Of a DNA stretch of 35,814 nucleotides, positions 130-35,814 are shown piece by piece. The DNA is from Roseburia sp. (GTDB lineage: Bacteria > Bacillota > Clostridia > Lachnospirales > Lachnospiraceae): contig JAMPIG010000034.1 of assembly GCA_023662875.1 (NCBI GenBank), forward strand, positions 1 to 35,814. The letters run 5' to 3'. The first letter of the stretch is position 1. Each line of letters starts with the position of its first letter. Both the position numbers and the translations under genes were made by a program. Below the pieces are notes generated by a model that was given only the letters and a program-made list of their open reading frames with translations, was not told where the DNA came from and searched no databases.

Positions 130-726
130 TTACATACGAATCAAATGCCGTCGGCAATCTACCAGCTTCTTTTCAATTCTCTTTGTATTAGTCACTTTCG
201 CTTTCGTAATATTTTCTATTTTCATCTTTTCCAGAACATGGTTGGTTGCCTTAATCAAAGAACAATATCCATATTCCTCGTTTTCGATCAAATCTACTTT
301 ATCTGTTCCTGCATACTTGGCAACCTTGATGGACACCCCGTTTTCATCTGCCAACAAATATGCAATGTAATTATACTTCCCATCCGGCGTCAGCAATTCA
401 AGACTGTCGGCAAACTTTGTGTTCAGCTCAAATCCACGCTCCTGATAATAAATTTTAAGCTGGGCAAAAGTAAGATTCTGCCGGGGCGATGGTATATTAC
501 GTAAAGTTGTATGAATTCTTTTGGCATACAACTCATCTAGCAACGCCATAGACATAGGCTGTGTTGACGTTCCCAGCCTCATATAACACCCATTGGGCGA
601 CATTCCTTTGCTTTTTATATAGTACGGCTTTTCCAGACCACTGGATACCACAATTTTAGTCACCGGAATATCATTCATGTACTCAGTCACAATATCAAAC
701 AGGCCAAACGTGGATGGTAAAATTAT
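130..726 (-). pseudogene. Truncated AlbA_2/RecG-like ATP-binding regulator fragment
   Basis: About 195 residues resemble the middle part of the AlbA_2 (Schlafen-like) DNA-binding/ATP-dependent helicase-related family. Recognisable pieces are the KPYYIKSKG strand and the YMRLGTST motif, followed by the linker with PSPRQNLTF. The family normally has an AlbA_2 core before this point and a divergent ATPase part beginning after an RIEKKLVD-type segment. Here the frame ends nine codons after that segment, with CRRHLIRM and a stop. At the 5' side the open frame runs into sequence that is out-of-frame M23 peptidase DNA, so the apparent start near 786 is not a native start. Both ends are therefore missing and the gene is probably dead. 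The family assignment rests on pattern recognition. Confidence 0.6.
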
Positions 727-33893: not shown

Positions 33894-33922
33894 AGTATAC
33901 GCCCTGCGCGCAGAAAAGTCAA
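33894..33922 (-). promoter_or_regulatory. Promoter of the AAA/PD-(D/E)XK gene, overlapping a stop codon
   Basis: On the minus strand, TTGACT (33917-33922) and TATACT (33894-33899) are spaced by 17 bp. The -35 covers the stop codon of the upstream M23-like gene, so the AAA gene has its own transcription. Confidence 0.7.
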
Positions 33923-35256
33923 TGTTCCCCCTGCTCCGCCAGCGGGTTGACCGCCTCCCCGTTGACGCTTACCGCAAACAGCAGGTTCGGGCCTGTGGCC
34001 ATTCCGCTCCGGCCCATTGTCGCGATGACCTGTCCCTGCTTTATCTCCTCGCCCTCGGATACCTTTCTTTCCTTTAGATGGCCGTATTTCACCGTAACGC
34101 CGTCTCCCAGATCCACCAGGATGAAGTTCCCTACAGGGCTGTCATAGCCCGCCTCCATGACCACTCCGTCCGCGACCGCATAGATTTCATCGCCGGCCGT
34201 TCCGACAATATTCACATGATCCGAAAAAATCCCGTTTTCATGACTGCCGTAGCTTCCCGATATCTCCCGGCTGACCGTCGGCCAGATCCAGCCCGAAAAG
34301 GCCAGCTCTTCCGCTTCATGCCTCTTTTCCTCCTCCGTCCCTTGTCTCTCTCTTCTTTGCTCCATAGAAGCAGCCGTCCTTGCCCTGACCTCCTCCGTCC
34401 GCTCGATCTCGAAATCGAAGAAACACATCCATGTCTGCCCGAAGGCAAACCGATCGTTCGTCAGGATAAAATAGTAGTCTCCCTCCGGCAGATTCTCTTC
34501 CATCGCCGCCACATCATAGCCCTCTGACAGGTCGATGGTTACAATTCCCTGGGCGCAGGGCGGTATCGAAAGTCCCGTCATCCGGATCTTTCCGCTGTCC
34601 CCTTCTACTTCCTCCCCGGTTGACCACTGCATAACCTTTACGCTGTCCTGCAGCCTTAATTCCTTGTCGGATTCATTAAAAACAACAATCTCAAATTTCC
34701 CGTCGCCCTGATAGGCCGGTGCAAATGCCGCATCGTCCCCGTTCAGCTCTGAAAACCTCGCGTAAGTGAAGGCGCATAACAGGAAGAAGCACAGCAGACT
34801 ACCCGCCGCAAGCGCCAGCCGCCCGATTCTCTGTCTGACGGGCTTTCTGACCGGGCTTTCCCGCCCGATCGATTCGGTCGGTTTTCTGACCGGACTTTCC
34901 TGCCCGATCGATTCGGTCGGCTTTCCAGCCAGGCTTTCCGGCCTGATCGATTCGGTCGGCTTTCCAGCCAGGCTTTCCGGCCTGATCGATTCGGTCGGCT
35001 TTCCAGCCAGGCTTTCCGGCCTGATCGATTCGGTCGGCTTTCTGACCGAAATAATAGCCGCGCCGGTTTTCTCCTGTACGATAGCCTGTATCGCCTTAAG
35101 ATTTTTTCTGCGGTATTTCTTCACGGAATACTCTCCTTCTTTTTTTGAAATCCCTTTTCCCATGGAAATTTTCCTTTCCATGGAAGTCTCTCTCTCCGCG
35201 GAAATCTCTTTTTCCGCAAAGGTCTCTCCTTTCCTGAAATGCCCTTTTTCCATCAT
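33919..35256 (-). CDS. Transmembrane protein with degenerate M23 (LytM) domain, coupled to a sigma factor
   Basis: This is a 445-residue single-pass protein. The cytoplasmic part (about 1-146) carries five 13-residue tandem repeats of type KPTESIRPESLAG (about 73-137), then a membrane segment at 147-166. A beta-rich extracellular domain follows (about 185-285), then a Glu/Arg helix and an M23 domain (about 320-438). In the M23 domain the zinc and catalytic positions are changed: the HxxxD motif reads S345...N349, and the HxH motif reads N424-L-L426. YGH392L remains. It should not be an active peptidase. The start overlaps the sigma factor stop as ATGA. The topology fits a membrane regulator (anti-sigma-like) with a wall-sensing pseudo-enzyme, by inference. 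Confidence 0.82.
   Translation of the reverse strand: MMEKGHFRKGETFAEKEISAERETSMERKISMGKGISKKEGEYSVKKYRRKNLKAIQAIVQEKTGAAIISVRKPTESIRPESLAGKPTESIRPESLAGKPTESIRPESLAGKPTESIGQESPVRKPTESIGRESPVRKPVRQRIGRLALAAGSLLCFFLLCAFTYARFSELNGDDAAFAPAYQGDGKFEIVVFNESDKELRLQDSVKVMQWSTGEEVEGDSGKIRMTGLSIPPCAQGIVTIDLSEGYDVAAMEENLPEGDYYFILTNDRFAFGQTWMCFFDFEIERTEEVRARTAASMEQRRERQGTEEEKRHEAEELAFSGWIWPTVSREISGSYGSHENGIFSDHVNIVGTAGDEIYAVADGVVMEAGYDSPVGNFILVDLGDGVTVKYGHLKERKVSEGEEIKQGQVIATMGRSGMATGPNLLFAVSVNGEAVNPLAEQGEH
34841..35048. repeat. Five 39-bp in-frame tandem repeats
   Basis: Units start at 34841, 34880, 34919, 34958 and 34997, with a partial sixth at 35036. The last three full units are identical, and the first two differ at several positions. 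They encode the 13-residue repeats in the cytoplasmic part of the M23-like protein. Confidence 0.95.
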
Positions 35257-35783
35257 ACCCGGTCTCCTTCCCGCTGCTCCATCCTCTTTTTCAGCTTCTG
35301 TCTCACATAATACAATCGATTCTCCACCTGTTTCTTTGGCAGTTCCATTGCGACCGCGATCTCCGCCGGTTTCTGCTCATAGTAATACCGCCTTAAGATC
35401 AGCTCCCTTTCCTTTTCATCCAGCTCCTCCACACAGCGCCTTAATTTCTCCGCGGATGTCCCTGCTTCTATGGAAGTCCCCATTTCCATGTCTCGCATCT
35501 CATCCCGGGAACATCCTTTTTTGAAAAAAGGCTTTCCCCTCACAGCATATCCCTGTTCCATATAACATCCATCTTCGTCCGCCACGCTATTTCCCGCGTA
35601 CCCCAGACTCTCCATCACGATTTCTTCCATGGATATCTCCCTTCGCCCGGCAATCCGGCGGTAGCGGTCAACCGCCCTCGACCTTGCGATAATGGAAAGC
35701 CAGGAGGATAGCTTCGCCTTGTCAGGGTTATACTTTTCCGGATGCTGCCATAGATAAATAAACTCAAACTTCGCACGTGAATT
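35253..35783 (-). CDS. Sigma-70 family (ECF-type) sigma factor, 5' end lost
   Basis: The minus-strand frame encodes region 2 remnants (EFIYLWQHPEKYNPDKAKLS, then SWLSIIARSRAVDRYRR) and a region 4 helix-turn-helix (LDEKERELILRRYYYEQKPA, then EIAVAMELPKKQVENRL). A Met-rich acidic linker separates them. The family would begin 40-60 residues earlier, but upstream of about 35765 the sequence is no longer sigma-like and a TAA occurs in frame at 35784-35786. No start with a good ribosome binding site lies before region 2; the internal ATG at 35630 would give region 4 only. The gene is therefore 5'-truncated, by insertion or assembly break. Its stop overlaps the start of the M23-like partner. Confidence 0.78.
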   Translation of the reverse strand, partial: NSRAKFEFIYLWQHPEKYNPDKAKLSSWLSIIARSRAVDRYRRIAGRREISMEEIVMESLGYAGNSVADEDGCYMEQGYAVRGKPFFKKGCSRDEMRDMEMGTSIEAGTSAEKLRRCVEELDEKERELILRRYYYEQKPAEIAVAMELPKKQVENRLYYVRQKLKKRMEQREGDRV

Positions 35784-35814
35784 TTAGCTATGCACCTTGA
35801 AAATTCAATATCTG

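Follow-up and report, generated by a model that had tools for sequence, protein, structure and literature searches.

To our knowledge, transmembrane anti-sigma factors are common, and for most of them the sensed signal is not known. Those of the RsgI type join a cytoplasmic anti-sigma segment to varied extracytoplasmic domains. RsiV, the regulator of sigma-V, has a receptor domain that is not M23-like; and for SpoIVFA we are not aware of any binding to an ECF sigma factor from a neighbouring gene. RsiV binds lysozyme, with release by regulated intramembrane proteolysis (available portions of PMC4183432, PMC5014341 and PMC9044953). SpoIVFA, of the sigma-K pathway, consists of an N-terminal domain, one membrane helix, a linker and an outer LytM-like C-terminal domain, and controls its sigma factor via proteolysis, by inhibiting the protease SpoIVFB (PMC3808539, in the portion available). 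SpoIIQ is a membrane protein with a LytM domain in which the first zinc His is replaced by Ser in B. subtilis, and its partner, in the part of the source at hand, is SpoIIIAH, not an ECF sigma factor (PMC4982068).

Here, we analyse a locus at the end of a 35,814-nucleotide stretch of DNA (the window), which encodes the C-terminal part of a predicted ECF sigma factor (P0001) and a predicted transmembrane anti-sigma factor (P0002) with an M23/LytM-like outer domain. By analogy, its proposed working would resemble that of RsiV, RsgI and SpoIVFA, membrane regulators with a receptor or a LytM-like outer part. As in RsiV/sigma-V, an ECF sigma factor would be paired with an anti-sigma factor that carries an extracytoplasmic receptor for a wall-active protein; unlike RsiV, P0002 has a cytoplasmic part without a Pfam family. 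With SpoIVFA, P0002 shares the domain order, the position of the LytM-like part outside the membrane and, putatively, sigma control, and with SpoIIQ the Ser in place of the first zinc His. Assignment of P0002 to SpoIIQ itself was rejected, its NCBIfam score being 42.1 bits against a cut-off of 250. P0002 differs from the RsgI type in having no RsgI domain (Pfam), although a related membrane protein of the same genome does carry the Pfam domain RsgI_M (see below). In the open-licence literature, as represented by titles and the beginnings of abstracts, we recognised no publication describing a pair of anti-sigma factor and M23/LytM domain, which may still have been published. Our preferred reading, to which we give a probability of roughly 0.8, is that the locus belongs to a modular family of ECF sigma/anti-sigma pairs with a pseudo-M23 domain as putative sensor. 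Support comes from conserved gene pairing, hydropathy topology, loss of the zinc site, purifying selection, domain swaps and a promoter motif.

Gene layout and the interrupted sigma gene

The locus is made up of the following features:

35763..35814, minus strand: end of a mobile element, repeated in the genome, that splits the sigma gene (repeat copies and a match on contig C10)
35253..35762, minus strand: sigma factor gene, C-terminal part, ECF-type by Sigma70 region hits (P0001)
33919..35256, minus strand: predicted transmembrane anti-sigma factor with pseudo-M23 ectodomain (P0002), 445 aa from ATG 35256 (Pfam)

P0001 gives a partial region 2 hit and a region 4 hit in Pfam, and scores 62 bits against the NCBIfam family TIGR02937 (sigma70-ECF; cut-off 43). 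The sigma factor of an intact relative (L074, 186 aa) has Sigma70_r2 and Sigma70_r4 hits and no region 3 hit. Judged by regions 2 and 4, the lack of region 3 and small size, the relative thus looks like an ECF sigma factor in full and P0001 in part. In the stretch that separates region 2 from region 4, the P0001 fragment is longer than its relatives by about 36 residues (window 35253-35630). The end of the sigma ORF and the start of P0002 share an ATGA (35253-35256), the overlap that the preliminary description of this DNA had reported. A purine-rich stretch lies upstream of both start candidates of P0002, ATG 35256 and the alternative GTG 35124, from which the protein would be 401 aa long.

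The extent first given for the sigma gene holds for 35253-35762, but not beyond: the final 52 bases of the window (35763-35814) form the end of a repeat that the source genome contains at eight sites. Seven of these sites are ends of contigs, and the eighth adjoins a run of N. By alignment, P0001 is cut after the position equivalent to residue 56 of the relatives' sigma factors. The N-terminal 56 residues of a sigma factor, 77% identical to those of a relative, are found on another contig of the same genome (C10:51-218), adjoining a similar, inverted end of the repeat. The sequence TTTATTTA flanks both the element end in the window (at 35755-35762) and its other end on C10; this duplication, read by eye, is as expected for an 8-base target duplication. 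Because the N-terminal part lies on C10 beside the inverted repeat end, with TTTATTTA at both ends, we conclude that the sigma gene is interrupted by an insertion in the source assembly. A partial sigma match in another region of the genome (C114) was considered as the missing part and rejected, since the ORF concerned is another one and does not lie at the end of its contig.

With the sigma gene split, the window's own genome probably has the system switched off. The P0002 gene is under normal constraint (see below), and the insertion is therefore probably recent.

Domains of P0002 and the zinc site of its M23 part

P0002 can be divided into the following parts:

35047..35124, minus strand: conserved cytoplasmic motif, residues 45-70, proposed sigma-binding segment (relatives' alignments)
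34841..35042, minus strand: 39-bp tandem repeat, 5.2 copies, encoding PTESIRPESLAGK-like repeats, residues 73-139
34762..34818, minus strand: single transmembrane segment, residues 147-165 (hydropathy scan and charge)
34387..34761, minus strand: membrane-proximal extracytoplasmic domain of about 120 residues, no Pfam family
33931..34290, minus strand: M23/LytM-like domain, zinc site lost (Pfam Peptidase_M23)
34222-34224 and 34210-34212, minus strand: S345 and N349, in place of HxxxD
34216-34218, minus strand: H347, new conserved His
34078-34080, minus strand: H393, kept active-site His
33985-33987 and 33979-33981, minus strand: N424 and L426, in place of HxH

The single hydrophobic stretch at residues 147-165 agrees with the one membrane segment described earlier. 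It is preceded by six K/R in 15 residues and followed by one in 15, so that hydropathy and charge, applied to P0002 alone, predict an N-terminus inside the cell and one membrane helix. The cytoplasmic part had been put at roughly 146 residues. This stands for the stretch before the membrane segment, but the conserved core, which begins at residue 45, has a length of just about 30; the tandem array takes up residues 73-139, and residues 1-44 exist only if translation starts at ATG 35256, not GTG 35124. The array is absent from six aligned relatives and is possibly a linker of variable length. In relatives of the same cytoplasmic class (class I), the core reads NLxxIxxIFxxKTGVxL. A search for known anti-sigma domains in the cytoplasmic part gave no Pfam hit in P0002 or in the relatives scanned.

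Between the membrane segment and M23 sits the membrane-proximal domain, which defines the family and is common to members with an M23 domain (M23-type) and to those with another distal domain (type B). Its motif is FGQDWMC in most relatives and FGQTWMC in P0002. The preliminary description, partly confirmed as a whole, had missed this domain as well as the splitting of the sigma gene by a mobile element.

Its placement of an M23 domain outside the membrane segment is upheld by a Pfam Peptidase_M23 hit to residues 348-438 (E 6.7e-25), and the replacements that it listed at the zinc and catalytic positions (Ser and Asn; Asn and Leu) are all present: the HxxxD position reads S345-D-H-V-N349 and the HxH position N424-L-L426, and H393 is kept within YGHL. 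In an alignment of the window and 28 of the 29 M23-type loci (A4), neither HxxxD nor HxH is present in any of the 29 rows; five further members (L209-L213) have lost HxxxD and, as read from their sequences, HxH too. The preliminary description had asked whether the zinc sites are always lost, and in this survey the site is gone from 34/34 M23-type members compared. Ser stands at the first His position in 30 of the 34 and Asn at the Asp position in 28. A new His at i+2 is found in 32/34, the same number as keep the YGHL His. The nearest M23 genes outside the family (L045-L072) have HxxxD and HxH intact in 28/28 cases and, under a control pattern that accepted only Gly or Ala at i+2 and that all 28 fitted, carry Gly (27) or Ala (1) there; no sigma ORF was seen near them within fetched flanks of up to 1.5 kb.

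Likewise, no sigma ORF flanks any of the five other M23 hits of the source genome. Two of these (L001, L002) are intact in the alignment; in a third (L004), HxH falls outside the aligned part and HLHW is present in the ORF; and two (L005, L006) are degenerate. Since the latter two lie outside the family, loss of the zinc site is universal in the family yet not unique to it. The degenerate M23 domain of L005 (C118) is part of a 357-aa protein whose gene precedes an amidohydrolase-like one; for L006 (C81), the protein has 252 aa and the gene that follows is bactofilin-like. Both neighbours were named by reading.

Without its zinc ligands, P0002 is, judged by sequence, not an active M23 endopeptidase. 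Such a domain could be a decaying relic, the membrane-proximal domain sensing alone, and type-B members do have the same membrane-proximal domain without an M23 match. Against decay, dN/dS in 12 pairs of related members, some of them shared between pairs, is 0.07-0.24 for the M23 part, near the 0.02-0.18 of the membrane-proximal domain, and is lower than that of the short linker in 11/12 pairs; the replacement residues themselves are also conserved, Ser at the first His and His at i+2 above all. We consider a relic very improbable. Given the conserved replacements and the low dN/dS, the pseudo-M23 domain is under purifying selection and in use.

It is also possible that the M23 domain is not simply dead, and that a site for a metal or ligand has been rebuilt from the i+2 His and the YGHL His. 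Provided that the fold is retained, the i+2 His would lie on the same strand face as the old ligands, and its prevalence in the family, set against Gly or Ala in the intact outside genes, would fit such a site, as would the kept YGHL His. However, replacement of the Asp and of both HxH positions should make a poor zinc site, and the i+2 contrast is drawn against a control pattern that admitted only those two residues. We hold a rebuilt site of this kind to be unlikely, and favour a non-catalytic sensor domain.

Family survey, sigma pairing and domain swaps

A family profile of nine rows (A2), covering the cytoplasmic part, the membrane helix and the membrane-proximal domain, was used to scan the genomes of 84,980 species, and yielded 78 loci; the scan was seeded by two short patterns (FGQDWMC; YYFVLTNN-like), and members without them were missed. 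At 75 of the 78 loci, a sigma ORF directly precedes the membrane-protein gene in the same orientation, the distance to the latter's estimated start being -29 to +159 nt, so that the membrane protein is encoded directly downstream of its sigma factor, as is an anti-sigma factor. Of the three loci without a sigma ORF, L172 is cut by a contig edge, and L173 and L175 resemble remnants. In the genus of the source, 33/138 genomes have profile matches, that of G740 being confined to the cytoplasmic part and the membrane segment; in a sample of the taxonomic family 2/397 do, one being the window's own. The cytoplasmic motif alone matches in 10/295 genomes of the order, four of them strongly: the window's own, a member of the same genus that the family set already included (L105), L180 (G657) and L181 (G641). 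L180 and L181 have the class I cytoplasmic motif in another family of the same order.

A distal M23 domain is present at 29/78 loci (L101-L128, L138). Type B, with a distal domain of about 240 residues without an M23 match, accounts for 42 of the other 49, and four loci (L132, L145, L163, L178) have no distal domain owing to a stop or a contig end; L172, L173 and L175 make up the remaining three. The type-B distal domain gave no Pfam hit above cut-off in three members scanned, no PDB match in a profile search and, across the 38 of the 42 loci that were aligned (A5), just two weak NCBIfam matches, one each in two members. Some pseudo-M23 members (L113:3501-5432 and L209-L211) have long extra C-terminal parts, and no Pfam match was found for these in L113 and L209. 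On a tree of the membrane-proximal domain, distal architectures need one change and cytoplasmic classes three; this tree (76 rows, 122 columns) was made by a quick method, and the SH-aLRT of the branch separating the types, 84, is too low to earn the programme's star.

The membrane-proximal domain is found on five cytoplasmic classes, M23-type members on classes I, II, IV and V and type-B members on I, II and III. To compare the kinship of sigma factors with these classes, we scored 19 sigma/partner pairs: class I and classes II-V contributed eight each, the latter without L171 and L209, and the source genome supplied three comparators. Sigma kinship tracks the cytoplasmic class, whichever ectodomain is attached: the 45 within-class pairs have sigma-to-sigma bit scores of at least 134, and none of the 126 between-class pairs exceeds 70.1, in a set of swap cases that we chose ourselves and classed by eye before scoring, and in which class IV has one member. 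The cytoplasmic peptides alone give the same split, at least 34 within and at most 30 between classes; shuffled peptides score a median of 18 and a 95% value of 25, the top of 171 being 39, above the lowest within-class score of 34. For example, L212 combines a pseudo-M23 domain with a cytoplasmic part and a sigma factor that are both of class V, and in L209-L211 a pseudo-M23 domain is found on class II cytoplasm. L217 is a reverse swap, with the sigma factor, peptide and promoter of class I but a PepSY ectodomain. In the window's own genome, each of six class II-like sigma genes (L029, L030, L031, L033, L091, L095) precedes a partner whose peptide looks like class II and whose ectodomain is of another kind, an assignment made by eye in which L029 and L033 were the ones scored.

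Other sigma-coupled membrane proteins of the source genome also carry folds of enzymes or inhibitors. The class II partner at L029 bears RsgI_M, a Pfam anti-sigma domain, together with PepSY, and in this respect recalls the RsgI type; that at L030 bears a serpin; and L022 is a class V pair with NlpC/P60.

Because sigma class follows cytoplasmic class and not the ectodomain, we propose the cytoplasmic part as the candidate sigma-binding part, for which the swaps are indirect but strong support. Across the 19 chosen pairs, this part also appears, on the same indirect grounds, to be specific to its sigma factor. An alternative explanation is that the membrane protein is an activator or scaffold for wall enzymes, in the manner of EnvC, NlpD or SpoIIQ, merely co-transcribed with the sigma gene and exerting no control over it. 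EnvC and NlpD are indeed known examples of LytM domains that are inactive and work through partner proteins, and the NCBIfam families of EnvC, NlpD and SpoIIQ were matched, all far below cut-off. In SpoIIQ of B. subtilis, Ser likewise takes the place of the corresponding His (PMC4982068, portion available). A mere passenger is, however, hard to reconcile with ectodomains that are swapped while sigma class and cytoplasmic peptide stay paired, and 38 aligned members bear another distal domain at the same place; we regard this explanation as quite improbable. The view of P0002 as a membrane anti-sigma factor with a dead M23 sensor, put forward in the preliminary description, is thus supported by the swaps, by the sigma pairing at 75/78 loci and by the 34/34 losses of the zinc site. 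The case named at the outset as speaking against it, an intact zinc site with no sigma neighbour, did not occur inside the family.

The class I promoter and a proposed mechanism

Class I operons carry the motif AGTGTTTT-N12-CGTAYTATA, or a near variant, upstream of their sigma genes. Among 67 class I upstream regions, from 66 loci and the source genome's copy on C10, 40 contain the strict motif; 200 single-base shuffles gave 0.0 occurrences per set. With near variants, which were picked after viewing the regions, it is found in 63/67, with a spacing of 12 in 56 of the 63. The source genome's own promoter copy is intact on C10. When a pattern of middle strictness was run over whole loci, it matched 54/69 of class I and 0/10 of classes II-V (L124, L168-L171, L174, L209-L212). 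A -10 element with CGT is a known feature of ECF promoters. The CGTA in the -10-like part, present in 63/67 class I regions when near variants are counted, suggests an ECF-type promoter through which the sigma factor would act on its own operon.

At genome scale, the strict pattern is found in 9/13 genomes, once each and always at the sigma operon, with no match in the reversed control. Allowing two mismatches, across 19 genomes, gives 32 matches against 56 in the reversed control, and hence no excess; 14 of the 32 have at most one mismatch, and 13 of these are at the sigma operon. The single match in G176 is not at a known operon of the family. A candidate for a further site, ahead of a gene for a secreted protein in the sister genomes of L237 and L244, was considered and set aside, as it has two mismatches and is not above control. 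Because the additional matches do not exceed control, we claim no regulon beyond the own operon.

Directly after the -10-like part, 33 of 55 distinct regions have a palindrome of at least 8 bases, against a mean of 2.9 and a maximum of 8 in 500 shuffles, kinship among the regions being uncontrolled. Eight different cores are seen (e.g., GACCGGTC, CTGGCCAG, CTGATCAG and GTCCGGAC). It looks as though a dimeric DNA-binding protein occupied the start site. The copy in the source genome is as follows:

contig C10 (L179), about 245-293, minus strand: palindrome

How might such a system work? On the mechanism that we infer, the short cytoplasmic N-terminus would bind the sigma factor and keep it inactive. 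One membrane helix would link it to the family-specific membrane-proximal domain, which bears the M23 domain. Because its zinc ligands are lost, the latter should not cut peptidoglycan, and may have been kept as a binding module. In its role as putative sensor, the pseudo-M23 domain would meet a ligand, most likely peptidoglycan or a wall enzyme, and the signal would travel via the membrane-proximal domain, so that the anti-sigma factor is cleaved or rearranged. The sigma factor thus freed, possibly by regulated proteolysis, would then transcribe its own operon from the dedicated promoter. One M50 protease was found, and 14/14 control genomes also have one, which hence lends no special support.

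The family offers several points of entry. A recognisable wall-enzyme fold without its catalytic site suggests the type of ligand, the domain swaps provide an internal control for the sigma-binding part, and the conserved promoter motif is a ready reporter. The M23-type ectodomain is seen on 4/5 cytoplasmic classes, and we tentatively suggest, at somewhat less than even odds, that Clostridia, many of them from guts by their record titles, may possess a modular kit of retired wall-enzyme domains on anti-sigma factors. The membrane-proximal domain and a rebuilt, non-catalytic M23 pocket (new His, Ser, Asn) would have been swapped among unrelated sigma/anti-sigma pairs, and may read the state of peptidoglycan or of its hydrolases directly.
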